This document shows positions 8,227 to 22,358 of a stretch of 64,000 nt of DNA, piece by piece. Under the pieces are notes generated by a model. The model was given only the letters and a program-made list of their open reading frames with translations, was not told the origin of the DNA and searched no databases. Within the stretch, counting starts at the first letter, position 1. Every line of letters starts with the position of its first letter. The stretch is from Aurantibacter crassamenti. Its GTDB lineage: Bacteria > Bacteroidota > Bacteroidia > Flavobacteriales > Flavobacteriaceae. The stretch is taken from assembly GCF_016811105.1 (NCBI RefSeq), contig NZ_JAFBGM010000001.1, positions 1,383,126-1,447,125 on the forward strand, in the 5' to 3' direction. Position numbers and translations under genes: made by a program.

Positions 8227-8307
8227 GTACTACTCTATTTTTGTTAAATACTAAAATTTCGCAACTTGATGATTTTTAGGGTAAGCTCTGCGCGAAAAAT
8301 AAATACT

Positions 8308-9810
8308 ATGACTTTAAAAATGAAGGAATACAAGATTTTACCAATTATTTGTTTATTACTTTTTTTAGCAAACGGAACTTCACTTTTCGGACAAAGTACT
8401 ACTTCGAAAGTAGTAAAGGTTTATCCTAAAGAAATAAATGATGTTTTAAATAATCCAGGAATTGGTTTTACAACATTTCAACGATTTAATGGTGATGAAT
8501 TAAATTCCGGAAATGGATGGACCGAAGGATATCCTATAGAATATCAAGAATTTAATGGAGATTTATCAAATAAAGACTACCCGAATACAAGTATTGCCTA
8601 TTATCGTGTTGTGTGGAATTTCCTTGAAACGGGGCCAGGGGTCTATAATTGGGATCTGATCGATAAGGCTCTAAAGACGTCAGCAGAAAGAGGGCAAACT
8701 TTAATGCTTCGTATTTCACCCTATGATGGTGAAGGTGTCAAAGATGCCCCTATTTGGTATAAAGAAATAGTAGGTAAAGAAAATCTTAAAATTAAAAGCT
8801 GGAGAGTTGACCCTGAAAGTCCTGAGTACATCCGTTATTTTGGAGGTATGATTGCGGCGCTTGGGCAACGATATGATGGACATCCAGACCTAGAAGCTGT
8901 TGATGTTTCTATTGTTGGATTGTGTGGTGAAGGGTCAGGTATGTATTTGCTAGCAGATAAAACAAGATTATCTCTTATTAATTCTTATTTAGATAATTTC
9001 AAGAAAACACATTTAATTTTTCAGCCTTTAAATGGCGACGCTCCCCGTCCAGAACGATTGGTGAAAGGCACTAATATAGCTGCGTATTGGCCTGATGGAA
9101 CTAATAATGGGGAGGGTTCAAATATGAGAAATTTAGGTTGGCGAATAGATTGTTTAGGTGATTTAGGTTATAAGCCTACATTTAGTCATATGGGAGATAT
9201 ATATCCTCAAGATATTATTAGAAGTGGAATGAGTGAAGCATGGAAAAAAGCACCCATTACAATGGAAATATGTCACACCTTTTTAAGGTGGTTAGAAAAT
9301 GAGAAATATGATGAAAAAGACGTTAATTATATTTTTGAACAAGCATTAAAATGGCATGTGTCTTCCTTCAATGCTAAAAGCTCTCCTGTTCCCGAAAGAT
9401 GGAGTCCGCTGGTTAACGATTGGTTAAAGAAAATGGGATATCGATTTGTTTTAAGAAAATTTTCTTATCCATCCAAGATAAAGCCTCACGGTCAGTTATT
9501 AATTAAAGGCTGGATAGAAAACAAAGGTGTAGCACCAATTTATAAAGACTATAAATTTGCAGTTCGATTAAAGAATAAAACAACAACAAAAGTATTTTCT
9601 TTTAATGTAGATATTAGAGATTGGTTACCTGGTGATGTTTATTTAGAGGATAAGCTATACATACCCAATGATATGCCACTCGGAGATTATCAAATAGAGG
9701 TAGCAATTGTTGATCCAGTGATGTTTGAATCTCGTGTAAAATTAGCAATTGAGGGAATTAATGATGAAGGTTGGTATTCAATGGGAGAAGTGAATATATC
9801 CAACAAATAG
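8308..9810 (+). CDS. Secreted DUF4832/DUF4874-type protein (glycosidase-like barrel)
   Basis: About 500 residues. A signal peptide (KILPIICLLLFLANGTSLFGQ) is followed by a TIM-barrel-like region with NPGIGFTTFQRFNG, YRVVWNFLETGPGVYNWDLI, RISPYDGEGVKDAPIWY and SIVGLCGEGSGMY, then a C-terminal beta-sandwich. This matches the DUF4874 plus DUF4832 arrangement seen in predicted glycoside hydrolases of PULs; no catalytic activity is assigned. It lies just past the SusCD terminator, so it may have its own promoter while belonging functionally to that locus. Start choice: 8308 precedes the signal peptide; 8320 is equally possible. The longer frame from 8266 adds non-signal residues. Confidence 0.75.
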   Translation: MTLKMKEYKILPIICLLLFLANGTSLFGQSTTSKVVKVYPKEINDVLNNPGIGFTTFQRFNGDELNSGNGWTEGYPIEYQEFNGDLSNKDYPNTSIAYYRVVWNFLETGPGVYNWDLIDKALKTSAERGQTLMLRISPYDGEGVKDAPIWYKEIVGKENLKIKSWRVDPESPEYIRYFGGMIAALGQRYDGHPDLEAVDVSIVGLCGEGSGMYLLADKTRLSLINSYLDNFKKTHLIFQPLNGDAPRPERLVKGTNIAAYWPDGTNNGEGSNMRNLGWRIDCLGDLGYKPTFSHMGDIYPQDIIRSGMSEAWKKAPITMEICHTFLRWLENEKYDEKDVNYIFEQALKWHVSSFNAKSSPVPERWSPLVNDWLKKMGYRFVLRKFSYPSKIKPHGQLLIKGWIENKGVAPIYKDYKFAVRLKNKTTTKVFSFNVDIRDWLPGDVYLEDKLYIPNDMPLGDYQIEVAIVDPVMFESRVKLAIEGINDEGWYSMGEVNISNK

Positions 9811-9911
9811 TTATATGTGTTAGGATGGTAATATAGTGGAGAATCTACTATTGTCTATTTATCAGTTTATTCAAGTATCGAAATTTCAAAAAAGATTTAG
9901 AATGTAAAAAG

Positions 9912-9971
9912 AAAAAGCCTTCAACTTGCGTTGAAGGCTTTTGCGGTCTGGACGGGACTCGAACCCGCGAC
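9912..9971 (-). repeat. Duplicated 3' end of tRNA-Asp plus terminator (attachment-site-like copy)
   Basis: These 60 bases match 15447-15506 at 59 positions; the only difference is in the hairpin loop. On the minus strand the copy holds the T arm, the 3' strand of the acceptor stem and the discriminator base of tRNA-Asp (9944-9971), then the same terminator hairpin (9916-9939) with a minus-strand T run. The D arm and anticodon arm are absent, so this is a tRNA remnant, not a gene. A 3'-tRNA remnant in the same orientation as an intact tRNA 5.5 kb away is the usual footprint of tRNA-targeted integration. Confidence 0.85.
9916..9939 (-). terminator. Terminator hairpin in the tRNA-Asp remnant copy
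   Basis: A perfect 10-bp stem (AGCCTTCAAC and GTTGAAGGCT) with a 4-nt loop. On the minus strand it is followed by a T run from 9916 down to 9912. It lies about 80 bp after the stop of the large minus-strand gene and probably ends its transcript. Four T on the plus strand also allow it to act after the DUF4832 gene. Confidence 0.8.
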
Positions 9972-10017
9972 ACCTTTGTCACCATTTGTTCATATTCTTG
10001 ATAAGAAAAATATTCCT

Positions 10018-13000
10018 TTATTCCTTAATAACTTTTAAAATTTGTTCTGATTTGTTTTGCAACGATTTAATTATGTAAATACCTTTAGGATAAATGGAAA
10101 GGTCTATTTCGGGTTCATGTTCATCAGTTTTTAGAGTTATTATTACACGATTAGAGAAATCTGTAACTATTATCTCTTTATCTCCAATGGGAATACCCGT
10201 TATTCTAAATTTACCTGTGGTAGGGTTGGGATGAACAAAAGCGGAAAGGTAACCATTATTTATTATGGATGTTTGCCATATTCTTGCCTTTAAATTACTT
10301 GATGTTGTATTACTCTCATTATATAAAACAGATACCTGTGTTTGTGATAGTTCATCGTTATATAGTTTAACTTCATCAATAATACCTTCGAAAAATTCAT
10401 TACTATAACCTGACCAACCAATATATCCATTACTACGATCTGATACCTGTCCATCATGAGCGTGAGTGCCAACTAATATTCCATCAATATACCATGACAT
10501 GGTACTTCCGTCGTACGTTACAGCAATATGTTGCCATTGGTTTGAAACAATTGAGCCAAAGTCCTTAATCTCACGACCAGTATCCGTACGTAAAACAAAT
10601 GTAAGCTTACCGTTATGAACAAATGTCATAAATCCTGATGATGTATCGGTGCCAGCAATTGCATGATAACCATTTGTATTAGTTGGATTAATCCAGGCAG
10701 ACAGAGAAAAACCTTCATTCAAGTCATTATCAATATCTGGTAAGTTAATCTGGTCGTCTAATCCATCAAATGTCAACGCACCTGCTATTTGGCCATTTGC
10801 ACTATTGTTATTAAAATTAAAACCATTTATAAGTAGTCCGTCATTTCCTTCTCCACTTATATCGTTTGCAGTTGTACCATTTTGTTCGTCAAATGGCCAA
10901 TAGCCAACACTATCAGGAAGCGGTGTTAAGCTTTCTGAATAAATATCATTGATTTGATTATTCGATAGAGCGCTTTCAAAGATTCTAACATCATCAAGTT
11001 TTCCATTAAAATATTCTTGAGCATAACCTGAATAGCCGATATAGCCTGTGTTTTGATCTAAAAGAGTGCCTGTGTGGTTTAAGGTTCCTACTGGTAATCC
11101 ATTAACAAACCAAGACATGGTATTGCCGTCGTAAGTGACTGCGATATGCTGCCACTGACTTGCAACAATTGTACCATGACTCATTAGTTTACGACCTGTA
11201 TTGGTTTTTAAGGCAAAACCAAGTTTGCCGTTATGGACAAATGTCATGAAACCTTGACTAGAATTAGTTCCAGTAATTCCTTGGTAACCATTAGTATTCG
11301 ATGGATTAATCCAAGCGGAAACTGAAAAGCCAGTTTGCATTCCATCATCGATATTAGGTAAAGTAATATGATCGTTAAATCCATCAAAAGACAAGGCATC
11401 ACCTATTTGGCCATTTGTACTATCATTAGTGAAATTTACACCATTTACAAGTGTTCCGTCATTGTCTTCACCACTCATATCACTCGCAATTGCGCCGTTT
11501 TGTTCATCTAATGGCCAGTGACCAACTAGGTCGCCAGCTGTACCATTATCTTCGATTCCTAAAATCTCAATGGCATTAATGATAGGGTGTCTATTCCCAC
11601 CTACTGCGGTTCTTGAATCAAAATCGATGTTCAGTTGCCCATCGGTAATAGTTACAGTGTATGACTTGGTGAGCACAGCCTCTGCTCCAACTTGGGCGAA
11701 AACATCTAAATTGTCTTCAACTAATGTGCTTTCTAAGTTCACATCGAATACACGACTGCCTATACCGCCACTACCGCCACCAGTAGCACCAAACCAAATT
11801 TCAGCAAAGTGTAAGTTAACGGTATAATCCCCATTGCTTAGTGGAATATCATAGCCCATAATCTCAGATGTGCTGTATCGTATGGATTTCATGGGTGCTG
11901 GAAGTCCTGTTTGCGGTCTATCTAAGGTACTTCCCGTGTCGAAATAGTTATCAGCCATATAGTTGTTTCCATTATAGGTAGTCACAGCTCCACCAGTGTT
12001 GATGCGCAACGCGAAACTATTGGTGTTTGGTTCTGGATTTACCGAAATTGTAACCGTATCTGAAGTGGTTTCAGTTTCATCATCAGTTACGATAAGTTCA
12101 AATATATATGAGCCTTCTTGTAAATTCGAAATTGTTGGTGTGGCCGAAGTTGCTCCAGTGATAGTAGCCGTAGATGGACCTGAATTTTGGGACCAAGAAT
12201 AAGTAATGTTACCGCCATCTGGATCACTACCTGAGCCTGTAAGTTGCAGACTATTATTTGGTAGTGTAGTCGTTTGGTCGGATCCTGCATTTGCAATGGG
12301 AGGGTCTCCAGCTTCAATTTCCAAAATTTCAATGGCGTTAATAATGGGGTGCCTTTCACCACCTACGGCGTTCCTTGAATCGAAATCGATATTTAGAACT
12401 CCATCTGTTATGCTTACAGTGTGAGTCCTAGTTAGTAAGGTTTCAGCTCCCACCTCTGCAAACACATCTAAATTGTCTTCGGCTAATTGACCTTCGATGC
12501 TTACGTCAAAAATTCGGCTACCGGTTCCTCCACTTCCGCCACCAGTAGCTCCGAACCAAATTTCAGCAAAATGTAAGTGCACAGTATAGTCTCCATTGTC
12601 CAACGGAATATCATAACTCATAACTTCAGATGAGCTGTAACGGATGGACTGAAAGGGTTCTGGAAGGCCTGTCTCAGGTCTGTCTAATGAAGTGCCAGTA
12701 TCGTAATGGTTATCGGGTAGATAGTTGTCTCCATTATAATTAACTCCCGTTCCTCCAGTATTTATTCGAATTGCTGTGCTATTTGGAGTCGGATTTCCAT
12801 TTATATAATCTAATGATCGAATACGATACGCCCAGTTTTTCGTGTTATCTGGTCGATTAGGAATTGTAAGTTGACCTCCAGAAGTAGTTGTTAGATCACC
12901 TGCATTTGTCCAACCCCCATTGGTTACATCCCACCATTCAAACCGATAGGGTTCTGACGTTAATAGATTTGTTAAAGTAGGTATGCTATAACTAGTAGTC

Positions 13001-14727
13001 AAAAATCCTAATGCAAATGCCTTATCATCAGATATGGATAAGGTCTGAACGTAGTTCTGGTTGTTGTTTAGATTAGATTCTGCTGCCGGAATCAATCGCT
13101 CATACTCATGGCCAGCATCCAATATAAAACTTTTTAAATGGCCCATGGCCTGTGATTCAAAATTTGTTGTCTGGCCAGTAATTTCTGATACGAATGCACC
13201 CAATGCGTTCACCTGGGGATTGTCTTCTCTAACGATTCTATTCGAAGTTGAAGATGCTGCACCTGCATACCATACATCTCCCCATGCATGGCCTGCCAAG
13301 CCACCACTAAGTACCGAGCCATACATCTGCATTTGCGCCATGGTAGCATCATTTAGACCATTGTTTATCTCATTATTTGAATGTAGACCCCAACCTGGGT
13401 AAAACGGCTCCAAATTAAGGGCAGGTTTCACCGTTGTCGGTTGATTAGGTTGGTCAGGTCGATAATAATATATGTCTGCCAACCATCTATGCATATCTTC
13501 ATCCCTTTCAGCATTACTAACATTTTGAATGTCAAGCGCATCAGGTATATCTCTTTCCCAATTATTTAAAGATGTGTTAAAAGACATTGCAGTTCTAGGT
13601 TGTCCATAAGGCATCCGATTTCCTAGCCTTGCGCTTAATTTAAGGTGTGCAGGTTTTACCAATTCATCTCGCCACTGGGGATAGACATTAAAAGCATTCG
13701 TATCATGGTGCACCCAGCTAAAAATCATGTTGTAACAGCCATATCGTGCCCATAGATAGCGGACATAATTATAAAAGGCATCTTTTTCACTCTGCTGGGT
13801 GCGAAAGGGCCAACGCTCATGCCGTCGTATTGTTTCGAATAAGGTCACAAATCCTTGGTCAGCCAAAAACTGCATTCGTTCGTCAACAGATTGCCAATAG
13901 GTTGGATTGATTTTTTTGTAGTTGACCTCATCATTCCAATGGGTAAATGATTCTGGAGGGGCTTTCATCTCGAACGGTGTTTCTCCGTTAGGACCTACCT
14001 TCATCCTGTCAGTAGCATTTGACCACAATCCCGATTCAGTCCCTGGTTGGTCTCGGTTTCTTCCCAGTTCATCCAAGTAGGTGTCATCCGGAAAACTGGC
14101 AATTACATTAAGTCCATTAAAACCCTGGTTTTTTCTTGCCAAAATATAGTCTTGAAAAGATATATCGGTTATGGTATTTGCCTGATTAAAACCAAACACC
14201 GCGGTCAATGCAGACCAAGAAGTATCTGCCGTATAAAAGAATGGCGCGCCATCGGCATACTCTAAAGTTCGGTTGTTGGCCGCAACTCTTATAAACCCGT
14301 GGTTATTAGGATTTGCACTTGTATTTCCCGCAGGAGTGGCATTAAATGAACCACTTTTCACATTATTCCCTATAAAACCCTGATCTGAATTGGTGACGCT
14401 GCTCTCGTCTATGCTCCAATTCCAAGTTCCAGTTGAAGTAGCGACTAAACGGGCTCGAAAGACATTGCCACCATCCCAGAATACAGGAATCTTATAGGTG
14501 CCTCCAGGCCCCGTTAAATTTACCCAAACATCTACATCCAGATAGGCGCTAAAATTACTATTGTATTGTGCCTGGCTTGTAAATGATACTTCAACTACAT
14601 GCATGACTGGGTAGCTATTTCCTGAAATATAGGGGCTTTTTCCTTGAGCAAAAACCTGTACATTGGAAAAAAAATAAAATATTATTACTAAAATAAGACC
14701 GTATTTGTTAATAAACATTGATTTCAT
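10018..14727 (-). CDS. Secreted multidomain DUF5060/DUF4038 (GH140-like) glycoside hydrolase with malectin, PKD, LamG and T9SS domains
   Basis: 1569 residues. Signal peptide 1-28; DUF5060 beta domain about 33-115; DUF4038 apiosidase-like barrel about 145-510 (HGFIRVAANNRTLEYADGAP, FFYTADTSWSAL); collagen-binding-like beta domain about 520-640; malectin 652-803; PKD 808-897; second malectin 906-1057; two LamG/concanavalin-like domains 1067-1254 and 1273-1461; type IX sorting domain about 1495-1569 (HPNPTTGKFRI, YPKGIYII). The two malectin units and the two LamG units are near-duplicates. Expected to be secreted through T9SS and act on complex plant or algal glycans; GH140 members cleave apiosyl links, but the substrate here is not shown. 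The gene lies alone inside the tRNA-Asp direct repeats. Confidence 0.88.
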   Translation of the reverse strand: MKSMFINKYGLILVIIFYFFSNVQVFAQGKSPYISGNSYPVMHVVEVSFTSQAQYNSNFSAYLDVDVWVNLTGPGGTYKIPVFWDGGNVFRARLVATSTGTWNWSIDESSVTNSDQGFIGNNVKSGSFNATPAGNTSANPNNHGFIRVAANNRTLEYADGAPFFYTADTSWSALTAVFGFNQANTITDISFQDYILARKNQGFNGLNVIASFPDDTYLDELGRNRDQPGTESGLWSNATDRMKVGPNGETPFEMKAPPESFTHWNDEVNYKKINPTYWQSVDERMQFLADQGFVTLFETIRRHERWPFRTQQSEKDAFYNYVRYLWARYGCYNMIFSWVHHDTNAFNVYPQWRDELVKPAHLKLSARLGNRMPYGQPRTAMSFNTSLNNWERDIPDALDIQNVSNAERDEDMHRWLADIYYYRPDQPNQPTTVKPALNLEPFYPGWGLHSNNEINNGLNDATMAQMQMYGSVLSGGLAGHAWGDVWYAGAASSTSNRIVREDNPQVNALGAFVSEITGQTTNFESQAMGHLKSFILDAGHEYERLIPAAESNLNNNQNYVQTLSISDDKAFALGFLTTSYSIPTLTNLLTSEPYRFEWWDVTNGGWTNAGDLTTTSGGQLTIPNRPDNTKNWAYRIRSLDYINGNPTPNSTAIRINTGGTGVNYNGDNYLPDNHYDTGTSLDRPETGLPEPFQSIRYSSSEVMSYDIPLDNGDYTVHLHFAEIWFGATGGGSGGTGSRIFDVSIEGQLAEDNLDVFAEVGAETLLTRTHTVSITDGVLNIDFDSRNAVGGERHPIINAIEILEIEAGDPPIANAGSDQTTTLPNNSLQLTGSGSDPDGGNITYSWSQNSGPSTATITGATSATPTISNLQEGSYIFELIVTDDETETTSDTVTISVNPEPNTNSFALRINTGGAVTTYNGNNYMADNYFDTGSTLDRPQTGLPAPMKSIRYSTSEIMGYDIPLSNGDYTVNLHFAEIWFGATGGGSGGIGSRVFDVNLESTLVEDNLDVFAQVGAEAVLTKSYTVTITDGQLNIDFDSRTAVGGNRHPIINAIEILGIEDNGTAGDLVGHWPLDEQNGAIASDMSGEDNDGTLVNGVNFTNDSTNGQIGDALSFDGFNDHITLPNIDDGMQTGFSVSAWINPSNTNGYQGITGTNSSQGFMTFVHNGKLGFALKTNTGRKLMSHGTIVASQWQHIAVTYDGNTMSWFVNGLPVGTLNHTGTLLDQNTGYIGYSGYAQEYFNGKLDDVRIFESALSNNQINDIYSESLTPLPDSVGYWPFDEQNGTTANDISGEGNDGLLINGFNFNNNSANGQIAGALTFDGLDDQINLPDIDNDLNEGFSLSAWINPTNTNGYHAIAGTDTSSGFMTFVHNGKLTFVLRTDTGREIKDFGSIVSNQWQHIAVTYDGSTMSWYIDGILVGTHAHDGQVSDRSNGYIGWSGYSNEFFEGIIDEVKLYNDELSQTQVSVLYNESNTTSSNLKARIWQTSIINNGYLSAFVHPNPTTGKFRITGIPIGDKEIIVTDFSNRVIITLKTDEHEPEIDLSIYPKGIYIIKSLQNKSEQILKVIKE
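10345..11529 (-). repeat. Tandem LamG-domain duplication inside the large glycosidase gene
   Basis: The segments 10966-11529 and 10345-10911 encode two closely similar LamG domains. Shared peptides include DEQNG near the start, GFMTFVHNGKL, SQWQHIAVTYDG or NQWQHIAVTYDG, and GYIG followed by SGY. The similarity points to an internal duplication that doubles a carbohydrate-binding or adhesion module. Confidence 0.85.
11557..12774 (-). repeat. Malectin-domain duplication flanking a PKD domain
   Basis: The segments 12319-12774 and 11557-12012 encode near-identical malectin-like domains (both contain LHFAEIWFGATGGGSGG and RHPIINAIEIL). They are separated by a PKD domain at about 12037-12306. High identity over about 450 bp suggests recent duplication or gene conversion. 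Confidence 0.85.
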
Positions 14728-15445
14728 TGATTGGGTTTTTAGAGGTTTTTATTTATTTAATATAATTACATATTAATATTTAACCGTTTTTAGGTCATTC
14801 TGATTCATATTATTTGTTTAGTTCAATATTTGCGTCAGAGGATTCTTCTAAATATGACGCGTTAAATATAATAATTTTGTAAGAATTGTAGGAAAAAAAG
14901 CAGTCTCAATAATTTTTCAAGCAATTAGGGAATACTTTGAACCTTGAATTAAATGCTTGCGGCCATATTTGTAATCGGAATTATTACCATTAAGCAATAT
15001 GCTTTTTAATGGAATTTTGTGCTTTTGGAGTAAGTAGAAAAACAATATAATATACTATGACAAATTTGCTATAAATAATGTGGTCTTAAATAACTACAAT
15101 TTGTTTTAAATTGCATAAACCTTGAGCAATTAGAATATTATACACATTGCTTTATATATAATAAACCTATTTTATTTTTATTTGTCAGTTATGAAGGAAC
15201 ATATGCTATAGCTAAATATCATAGGTGTATTGTAAAGATTTATAAGAGAAGGTATTGCGAAATTTATGCATGTGCTTAGTGTTGTACGTGCTATTCTATT
15301 TGTCTATTTTTCACCATTAGTTTTTTTGAATTAATTTGCCCTTTAGAGGTCTTTGTATTAGGTTATTACAATAACAACTAATCGGTAAAATATATTAATA
15401 TTTTAAATGGATGACTACTTTAGAAATATGTAAATACGGTGAATA
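14728..15445. other. Non-coding, AT-rich stretch between the large glycosidase gene and tRNA-Asp
   Basis: About 720 bp with no open frame of useful length on either strand and no recognisable gene fragment. It must hold the promoter of the minus-strand glycosidase gene, but I could not pick a convincing -7/-33 pair. If the flanking repeats are attachment sites, this is where a lost integrase gene would be expected. Nothing resembling one is seen. Confidence 0.6.
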
Positions 15446-15474
15446 AAAAAAGCCTTCAACTTGTGTTGAAGGCT
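15445..15474 (-). terminator. Terminator of tRNA-Asp
   Basis: A 10-bp perfect stem (15451-15460 with 15465-15474) and 4-nt loop, followed on the minus strand by a run of T from 15451 down to 15445. It starts 5 nt past the tRNA 3' end. Confidence 0.85.
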
Positions 15475-15506
15475 TTTGCGGTCTGGACGGGACTCGAACC
15501 CGCGAC
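15447..15506 (-). repeat. Intact-tRNA copy of the tRNA-Asp 3'-end direct repeat
   Basis: The partner of 9912-9971 in direct orientation, identical at 59 of 60 positions. It covers the tRNA-Asp 3' end and its terminator. Identity stops inside the tRNA at the start of the T arm (position 15506), which is where a crossover or the end of an attachment core would lie. Confidence 0.85.
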
Positions 15507-15552
15507 CCCCTGCGTGACAGGCAGGTATTCTAACCAACTGAACTACCAGACC
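15479..15552 (-). tRNA. tRNA-Asp (anticodon GTC)
   Basis: A 74-nt cloverleaf on the minus strand. The acceptor stem is GGTCTGG with CCAGACC and discriminator G. The anticodon stem is CCTGC/GCAGG around the loop CTGTCAC, giving anticodon GTC. The T arm contains GGTTCGAGTCC. CCA is not encoded. The 3' third is duplicated at 9944-9971, which marks this tRNA as a probable integration site. Confidence 0.95.
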
Positions 15553-15703: not shown

Positions 15704-16351
15704 TTAAAGGGGTTTTACCATAATGTCTTTATAGTAAATAACACTGTTTGGATCGTGCCCCTGCAGGGCAAAAGTGCCGCTTGTCAGTACTCGGTATACG
15801 CCATTTCCTTCTCGTAATGGCTTTTCGGGTTCTGTGTAATCAACTACTACAATATCATTTATTTTAATAATTATCCGTTTTCCTTCCACTTTAATATATT
15901 CAGTATACCATTCATCATCTTTTACATACGTTTCTTTTACATCAACAATGCTATATAAACTACCTGTACGTCTCCAATCTCCTTGTGAGTTGTTTACTTG
16001 CACTTCATAACCATGAAGAGGCCAACTTGCTTCTTGGTATTTCGTGTGTATATAGATGCCTGAATTGGCGCCAGGTTTGGTTTTTACTGAAGCTTTGAAT
16101 TCAAAATTTTTAAAATCGTGGTTTTCAACATCGCCAACATAAAATAAATGCGCTTTAGGTCCGGCTACTTTTATAGTGCCATCAACAATTGAAAAGGTAG
16201 CAGCATTTTCGCCAACTTGCCAGCCATCAAAATTTTTTCCATTGAACAAAGAAATCCAACCTTCATTATTCGGGTGGTCTTGTGCGAAAATTGGACTGAG
16301 AAATAGACAATATAATACTAAGGTGCAGAGCGTTTTGATGTTTTTTGTCAT
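15704..16351 (-). CDS. Secreted DUF1080 (3-keto-disaccharide hydrolase-type) protein
   Basis: 215 residues with a signal peptide ending FLSPIFAQ. The body is a single concanavalin-like beta-jelly-roll of the DUF1080 family: EGWISLFNGKNFDGWQ at the start, then GANSGIYIHTKYQEASWPLHGYEVQV and the terminal IYYKDIMVKPL. Some family members act on 3-keto-glycosides made by Gfo/Idh/MocA oxidoreductases. One such oxidoreductase gene lies 4 kb away at 20637, which makes a functional link plausible but unproven. The start is divergent from the hydrolase gene at 16477, with about 125 bp of shared promoter region. Confidence 0.85.
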   Translation of the reverse strand: MTKNIKTLCTLVLYCLFLSPIFAQDHPNNEGWISLFNGKNFDGWQVGENAATFSIVDGTIKVAGPKAHLFYVGDVENHDFKNFEFKASVKTKPGANSGIYIHTKYQEASWPLHGYEVQVNNSQGDWRRTGSLYSIVDVKETYVKDDEWYTEYIKVEGKRIIIKINDIVVVDYTEPEKPLREGNGVYRVLTSGTFALQGHDPNSVIYYKDIMVKPL

Positions 16352-22190: not shown

Positions 22191-22198
22191 TATCTTTG
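22191..22198 (+). promoter_or_regulatory. Bacteroidota-type -7 promoter element
   Basis: TATCTTTG matches the Bacteroidota -7 consensus TAnnTTTG. A TTG lies about 22 nt upstream and may be the -33 element. It stands just before a short two-hairpin transcript and no coding gene. Confidence 0.5.
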
Positions 22199-22203
22199 TA
22201 GCG

Positions 22204-22273
22204 TTGTGTTGTAACCCTTACCTTAAGTAGGTGTGGGCCAATGAAAGGCTTTCCTAGTTGGAAGGCTTTTTTT
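22204..22273 (+). ncRNA. Candidate small RNA (two hairpins, about 70 nt)
   Basis: Downstream of the promoter element lies a hairpin at 22215-22237 (CCC-TTA-CCT with AGG-TGT-GGG around a 5-nt loop, one T-T mismatch), then a terminator hairpin at 22246-22268 and seven T. No open reading frame fits inside. Start and function are inferred. It could be a known family that I cannot recognise from memory, or the leader of nothing, since the next gene is on the other strand. Confidence 0.5.
22246..22273 (+). terminator. Terminator of the candidate small RNA
   Basis: The stem pairs AGGCTTTCC (22246-22254) with GGAAGGCTT (22260-22268), including two G-T wobbles, over a 5-nt loop. Seven T follow from 22267. 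Confidence 0.7.
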
Positions 22274-22358
22274 GTGGGTATTACTTTGAAGCAAATTGGG
22301 CTACTTGATATAATTCAGCTACCAATTATTAAAGCAAATTTGTGTTGGTCAGTTAAAA

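Follow-up and report, generated by a model that had tools for sequence, protein, structure and literature searches.

A 5.5-kb segment next to the tRNA-Asp gene of Aurantibacter crassamenti was found to have the features of an integrase-less genomic element, or cassette, for which the T-arm of that gene served as the point of entry by site-specific recombination, and we give this reading a probability of roughly 0.85. The segment lies in a stretch of 64,000 nucleotides, referred to here as the window (positions 1383126-1447125 of contig C1 in genome G000, which is 4.52 Mb in two contigs). The observations behind the reading are a 60-bp repeat, a breakpoint zone common to independent cases, an orthologous site where the cargo varies, and the absence of any recombinase that belongs to the local family. 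Integration at the tRNA had been proposed in a preliminary description of the window and is well supported. We infer that the insertion was carried out by a tyrosine recombinase like those found beside tRNA-Asp in relatives.

The window contains a single tRNA-Asp gene according to ARAGORN (anticodon GTC; 15478..15552, minus strand; 69.6 bits with the Rfam tRNA model), and this intact gene is the target. Its last 29 nt, together with the 31 nt past its 3' end, which are an intrinsic terminator, form the attL-like repeat on the tRNA side (15447..15506, minus strand), as seen by sequence comparison. The same module is found again, with one mismatch in 60 bases, as a truncated tRNA-Asp 3' end with its terminator at 9912..9971 on the minus strand. 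This attR-like distal copy is 5,535 bp away and downstream in the direction of the tRNA. Its 29-nt tRNA tail (9943..9971, minus strand) breaks at the 5' edge of the T-arm, and ARAGORN called no tRNA there. The preliminary description was therefore correct in reporting a 60-bp repeat of the tRNA 3' third and terminator, with the only complete tRNA at the right copy. A repeat search of the window extended the match to 71 nt at 93% (9904-9974 and 15439-15509). When a 72-nt query was compared with the whole 4.52-Mb genome, just two good places were found (E = 1.2e-31 and 8.0e-24), which excludes a chance origin of the repeat. The palindromic terminator matched itself on the opposite strand at E = 0.0018, and the best match elsewhere in the genome had an E value of 0.08. 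Past the 60-bp repeat, no homology above chance was detected, since 171 of 300 shuffles were as good downstream and 21 of 300 upstream. Repeats at both ends of a cassette, with the tRNA intact on one side, are a hallmark of tRNA islands.

The sole long open reading frame (ORF) between the repeats is an intact cargo gene of 1,569 aa (10018..14727, minus strand), which is oriented as the tRNA and ends 44 bp before the truncated tail. Its product is a glycosidase-type protein with DUF5060, an apiosidase-like catalytic domain, two malectin stretches, PKD, two LamG stretches and Por_Secre_tail, the sorting tail of the type IX secretion system. A single large gene without an integrase is what had been described for this interval, and we agree, as the lone long ORF is no recombinase. 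From the cargo gene to the tRNA terminator runs an AT-rich, non-coding stretch of 719 bp (14728..15446, no strand assigned; GC 0.25). The cargo gene also contains internal duplications in its LamG and malectin parts, seen as 300-nt direct repeats at 70 and 74% identity (10466-11383 and 11550-12611).

Two species of the same genus were compared with the window, and one of them, G001, has different cargo at the same site. Its tRNA-Asp is orthologous by three upstream genes, DUF1080, aldose epimerase and a 361-aa protein, at about 80% identity. The DUF1080 gene (3-keto-disaccharide hydrolase family; 15704..16351, minus strand, in the window) marks the orthologous site because it is upstream of tRNA-Asp in both genomes. 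In G001, the tRNA-Asp and its own tail copy, which is made of 23 nt of tRNA and 40 nt downstream, are 29.5 kb apart (contig C3, L070/L109), and a type VI secretion system (T6SS) cluster is found where G000 has the glycosidase. With 10 of the 23 ORFs of at least 115 aa in this interval family-scanned, the proteins recognized include TssO, TssF, gp25, a ClpB-like AAA protein, TssC, PAAR, a VgrG-like protein and TssD. The preliminary description had suggested, as a test of integration, that relatives should have other cargo between these repeats, and this was observed. No integrase of the tRNA-Asp family was found by profile in the 29.5-kb interval. Shared genes resume from +28.8 kb in G000 and from +33.9 kb in G001, with five proteins at 78-87% identity and then more.

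Varying cargo bounded by repeats of the tRNA 3' end was found at 17 loci with 24 truncated copies, G000 itself supplying one cassette. The 17 loci were drawn from 51 loci with a callable tRNA-Asp in 47 genomes, and 12 of the 51 were chosen because pattern counts hinted at copies. When the chosen loci were left out, a tail copy was present in 8 of 35 family genomes (G000-G036, without G005 and G024) in the DNA examined, which usually reached less than 20 kb downstream of the tRNA, further for G000, G001, G002 and G027, but fell short of 2 kb at four loci, those of G003, G008 and G020 and one of the three G035 loci. L126 (no callable tRNA), L124 and L125 (G141), and L081 (a second contig of G020) were dropped before the counts were made. 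The smaller cassettes include a 2.8-kb unit in G013 with an AbiEi/AbiEii-like pair (AbiEi_2 at E = 8e-24, AbiEii just under the curated cut-off), for which PADLOC gave no AbiE match and one weak other match. A 2.4-kb unit in G036 carries a GMC oxidoreductase and a small protein, a 3.4-kb unit in G121 carries a Fic protein (SoFic model, E = 3.5e-50) and a 636-aa protein without an assigned family, and a 4.3-kb unit in G069 carries a PKD/CHU_C protein. Arrays were found as well. G103 has three successive units with three tail copies, namely an Fe-S/molybdopterin oxidase pair, a group with a cupin regulator, a CoA-transferase, a class III aminotransferase and a 481-aa protein, and an APH-like kinase. 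The 481-aa protein resembles lysine 2,3-aminomutase by eye and has no Pfam family at 1e-5. In G027, six tail copies divide an array whose genes include a DUF1989 protein, a methyltransferase and a met-zincin.

A pattern scan with 20-mers was run on 199 family genomes with completeness of at least 90, allowing up to two mismatches in the tail. The tail 20-mer was found in 192 genomes and the anticodon-arm 20-mer in 148, and a reversed control pattern gave zero matches in the tail and arm genome tables. By these pattern counts alone, 24 of the 199 genomes had more tails than arms with at least one arm. Fourteen of the 24 were examined with a callable tRNA, and 11 showed a copy (all except G098, G183 and G187). 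A tRNA-Leu control was unclean, as its tail pattern, with a match in 95 of 199 genomes, also fits other Leu genes, so we make no claim of a preference for tRNA-Asp. In G143, G138, G183 and G225, extra tRNA-Leu tails were seen about 105 bp to 2 kb apart, with mismatches mostly at the 5' end of the pattern. There may be similar insertions at tRNA-Leu.

The breakpoints of the 24 truncated copies at the 17 loci fall in a narrow zone. Between 13 and 29 nt of the tRNA were retained in 22 of the 24 copies, and 10 and 43 nt in the other two, by a tail scan that needed about 17 matching tail bases or the tail-terminator junction and to which very short tails are invisible. A distance of 13-29 nt from the tRNA 3' end corresponds to the T-arm and its edges. 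The T-arm region of tRNA genes is a known position for tyrosine recombinases. The same copies bear on the possibility that the left copy is what remains of a second tRNA-Asp gene in tandem, which the preliminary description had named as the alternative that would undo its proposal. Intact tandem tRNA-Asp genes do occur in the family, 377 bp apart in G016 and 685 bp apart in G023. A decayed gene of this kind should leave traces of its 5' part, but in the window the first 30 nt of the tRNA match in register upstream of the copy at only 9 of 30 positions, and over all 24 copies at 177 of 720 (24.6%), which is the level of chance. When the tRNA 5' end was slid over 170 nt upstream of each copy, none beat shuffles at 0.05 (the lowest fraction was 0.09 of 100 shuffles). 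With a sharp edge, a 5' part at chance and a 3' part identical at 29 of 29 positions, the left copy was rejected as a decayed tandem tRNA-Asp, and we regard that origin as extremely improbable.

Another possible explanation is that DNA was taken up from relatives and that two tRNA-Asp tail-terminator modules then underwent homologous recombination, with no site-specific recombinase involved. Several genera share a module that reaches 100-177 nt past the tRNA (174 nt at 97.7% in G036; 177 nt at 93% in G019), a length sufficient for homologous pairing. However, the 5' edge would not recur near the T-arm under this explanation, and the window copies share only about 60 bp. We therefore consider it unlikely.

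Integrases of one family are found at this site in part of the survey. They were sought by iterated HMMER over ORFs, starting from the G019 protein (domains Arm-DNA-bind_5, Phage_int_SAM_5 and Phage_integrase, PF00589), and then with an eight-protein profile over all frames. A tyrosine integrase lies inside the interval from the tRNA to the copy at 6 of the 17 loci (G014, G019, G115, G147, G197 and G198). Two further genomes, G004 and G187, have one beside tRNA-Asp and no tail copy in the DNA examined. The integrase starts 190-505 bp 3' of tRNA-Asp and in the same direction in G004, G019, G115, G187, G197 and G198. It starts at 1.7 kb in G014 and lies at the far end of the interval in G147. 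The most divergent integrases are those of G004 and G147. At one of the 17 loci, G186, a decayed copy was found in the form of a 124-aa integrase remnant 197 bp from the tRNA. At the other 10, including G000, no integrase was detected by the family profile. The ten innermost intervals without an integrase hold 55 ORFs of at least 115 aa, and the 30 that were family-scanned include no tyrosine or serine recombinase; the G203 interval holds a transposase with rve/HTH_21 domains. In G000, all frames were searched over a stretch that begins about 4.4 kb upstream of the tRNA and ends 55 kb downstream of it, and the local integrase family was not detected there. Relatives of the integrase also occur on viral contigs, with a top identity of 52% among the best 80 of 112.

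The insertion could be pictured as follows. A circle with its own tRNA 3' end and terminator would insert at the T-arm of tRNA-Asp, and the incoming tail would complete an intact tRNA gene (15478-15552), so that the tRNA would stay functional. The displaced original 3' end and terminator would persist as the copy at 9912-9971 and mark the far end. Repeated insertion at the tRNA would give rise to arrays. This model would explain why one tRNA is intact and the copy truncated, why the terminator is shared, and how arrays grow. The recombinase would either have come from a larger element that later lost it or have acted in trans on a cassette flanked by sites. These are two forms of the same explanation, they are of similar weight, and the locus alone cannot separate them.

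In the first form, an integrase-bearing element lost its integrase and other genes until one cargo gene was left between attL and attR, which would make it a cis-mobilizable element (CIME) in the strict sense. Integrase-bearing intervals at the same site (6 of the 17 loci), the fragment that is all G186 keeps of its integrase, and the AT-rich gap of the window, which lies where several related elements carry the integrase, give this form a nearly even chance. It fits less well with a window in which no integrase remnant was found, with a cargo gene that is intact up to 44 bp before the tail, and with the 10 of 17 intervals that lack a detected integrase and differ in content as cassettes do. 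In the second form, integrases encoded by other elements excise and integrate cargo that is flanked by tails, and arrays build up next to the tRNA. The arrays split by tail copies in G027 and G103, with no family integrase in the DNA examined, and the compact units in G013, G036 and G121, each built around one or two main genes, are consistent with such mobilization, as are strong integrase-family matches elsewhere in some such genomes (e.g., G001, G028, G069 and G203). Against this stand the absence of any observed circular form or transfer, the lack of a close family member at present in G000, G027, G121 and G103, and the glycosidase, which is the only cassette gene sought in other genomes and was never beside tRNA-Asp tails. 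We put the second form somewhat below an even chance. The preliminary description had offered a decayed island or a cassette mobilized in trans. Its idea of integration is well supported. Mobilization in trans is putative, and G000 has no close member of the tRNA-Asp integrase family that could act in trans today.

Several findings weigh against entry of the segment by site-specific recombination. The clustering of breakpoints is subject to a detection bias at its short end, so that the rarity of longer tails is its only unbiased aspect. The all-frame profile found no integrase remnant in the 719-bp gap. Across the G000 genome there are three matches to the integrase family, the best at E = 1.3e-13 in a 299-aa frame, and no close member. 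The GC content of the cassette (0.378) differs little from that of the window (0.346). Homologues of the glycosidase are patchy, being found in 10 of 397 genomes at E ≤ 1e-50, and at these ten loci besides that of the window, with 14-15.5 kb searched at each, there was no tRNA-Asp tail (up to four mismatches) and no tRNA. The distal boundary is not the same in G000 and G001, because 23 kb of genes beyond the distal copy in G000 have no counterpart at this place in G001. These are genes of polysaccharide utilization loci (PULs), as judged by domains near the window and by eye beyond it. Lastly, an empty site in close relatives had been proposed as a test, and none with both flanks was found. 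In G002, the other species of the genus (84% complete, 670 contigs), no tail copy was present in 36.8 kb and the flanks are rearranged, so it does not provide a clean empty site. A search through the DUF1080 neighbor listed the best 80 of 189 relatives (Arenibacter, Eudoraea and others), and the 25 of these 80 loci that were scanned had no tRNA-Asp and hence no empty site.

The glycosidase was also considered as a travelling cassette in its own right. This was rejected because the repeat does not accompany the gene at any of the ten homologous loci. A second gene of the glycosidase type is present in the same genome (G000:C2:229895-231742, L338), with 72% identity over residues 19-645, and no tRNA-Asp tail was found in the 15 kb around it.

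A SusC/SusD locus neighbors the cassette. Its DUF4832 gene (8266..9810, plus strand) lies outside the repeats and converges on the cassette. The label of PUL cargo given in the preliminary description is only a loose fit, since the repeats do not enclose the SusC/SusD genes, which run toward the cargo gene. The tRNA-Asp locus has also been rearranged. A thioredoxin gene and a gene for a 309-aa protein, DUF58-like by eye, directly precede tRNA-Asp in G027, G028 and G186, among other genera. In G000 and G001, the same pair is found 43-50 kb downstream, inverted, beside a 1459-aa gene.

The sequence after the terminator is alike across many genera and, in several cassettes, was duplicated along with the tail (G036, 174 nt at 97.7%; G069, 153 nt at 96%; G197, 143 nt at 94%; G186, 102 nt at 98%). 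It is predicted to fold as a small RNA. In 19 sequences from 18 genomes, the fold combines GUUGUGUUG as a single strand with two hairpins, a short AAUG-like link and a terminator, although G027 and G186 have their first two helices nested. Folding z-scores were -3.6 to -6.8 compared to simple shuffles. A covariance model built from seven sequences gave 41 matches in 58 sources. In an alignment fitted to the model, and thus leaning to it, 28 of 34 pairs changed on both sides, and 93.2% of cells pair compared to at most 60.3% with the partners slid. With search filters that lose weak matches, the small RNA was found in 24 of 60 genomes. These 24 all belong to the 37 family genomes, and the 23 genomes from other families gave no match. 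Fourteen of the 24 have one copy within about 150 nt 3' of tRNA-Asp, and copies directly 3' of the gene are found in relatives (e.g., L105:1715-1817 and L087:18108-18225). Some copies stand alone behind a TAnnTTTG box, which is a flavobacterial promoter according to the available text of PMC9723704. The window has a weak match to the covariance model (29.7 bits; 22203-22275, plus strand) that a stricter genome search did not list, preceded by the promoter box TATCTTTG at 22191-22198. No Rfam family reached its cut-off for the small RNA, and the best overlap in the window was Phe_leader, at 20 bits against a cut-off of 55. The small RNA may be one of the Rfp RNAs of F. psychrophilum. In two genomes, copies stand in a row downstream of tRNA-Asp (L087:13950-18225 in G007 and L105:1715-5327 in G036), and the tRNA tail is unrecognizable at the outer copies. 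Perhaps these rows are older cassettes in an array.

These data identify tRNA-Asp as a repeatedly used insertion site in Flavobacteriaceae, which are known to degrade algal polysaccharides. A gene resembling those of carbohydrate-active enzymes (CAZymes), a T6SS island, and toxin-antitoxin- or Fic-like genes share the same kind of slot. The compact units without an integrase raise the question of whether they are leftovers or cassettes moved by the integrases of other elements. A broader and rather doubtful proposal is that Flavobacteriaceae trade cassettes at tRNA-Asp in an integron-like manner, with compact integrase-less cassettes moved in trans by the tRNA-Asp tyrosine integrases of other elements. 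If so, each cassette, a gene or an operon, would end in a tail and terminator and, in many genera, a small RNA gene. Arrays would build up next to the tRNA, and genera would exchange CAZymes, defence pairs, secretion systems and metabolic operons. The breakpoint rule, a tail of about 13-29 nt with the sequence that follows the tRNA, provides a simple cassette finder for any genome.

Cassettes at the tRNA-Asp of Flavobacteriaceae are not described in the titles and abstracts of the open-licence literature that surfaced; one paper, PMC8694125, mentions tRNA-Asp a single time. Compared with known systems, the best reading of the window unit is a cassette without an integrase that resembles a CIME and belongs to the known "additive island" kind. 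As for a tRNA-integrated island of the tyrosine-recombinase type, the repeat and the differing fill in relatives were found, and an integrase of its own was not. CIMEs have att-like ends and no integration or transfer genes, as given in the accessible part of PMC5704250. The window unit is similar, with attL- and attR-like repeats, judged by sequence, at both ends and no genes for integration or transfer, and in relatives, elements have accreted at the tRNA 3' end, as that text describes. Unlike a CIME, it has one gene only, and its descent from an integrative and conjugative or an integrative and mobilizable element is putative. The excerpts consulted on tycheposons of Prochlorococcus (PMC10872708, PMC11389934) present elements that are likewise bounded by tRNA, linked to tyrosine recombinases and loaded with metabolic cargo; the window element differs from them (PMC10872708) in being a 5.5-kb unit with one gene and no recombinase. 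Clusters of attC sites lacking integrases (CALIN), as outlined in the same portion of PMC11389934, are also integrase-less cassette arrays, but the repeat here is the tail of a tRNA and the likely recombinase family is phage-type. Among additive islands, those of 'Ca. Methylopumilus' measure 330 bp to 42 kb and come with repeats of the final 20 nt of tRNA-Lys (PMC10872708, in the part available), and in 'Ca. Actinomarinales', tRNA-fragment repeats end inserted cassettes (PMC7771536, likewise in part). As far as these sources extend, both they and our loci have cassettes at a tRNA that are marked by 3' fragments, vary in cargo, are sometimes very small, and form arrays. The cassettes described here are distinguished by their presence in another phylum, at the tRNA-Asp of Flavobacteriaceae, and by a duplication of more than the tail, namely of the terminator as well and, in certain genera, of a small RNA gene.

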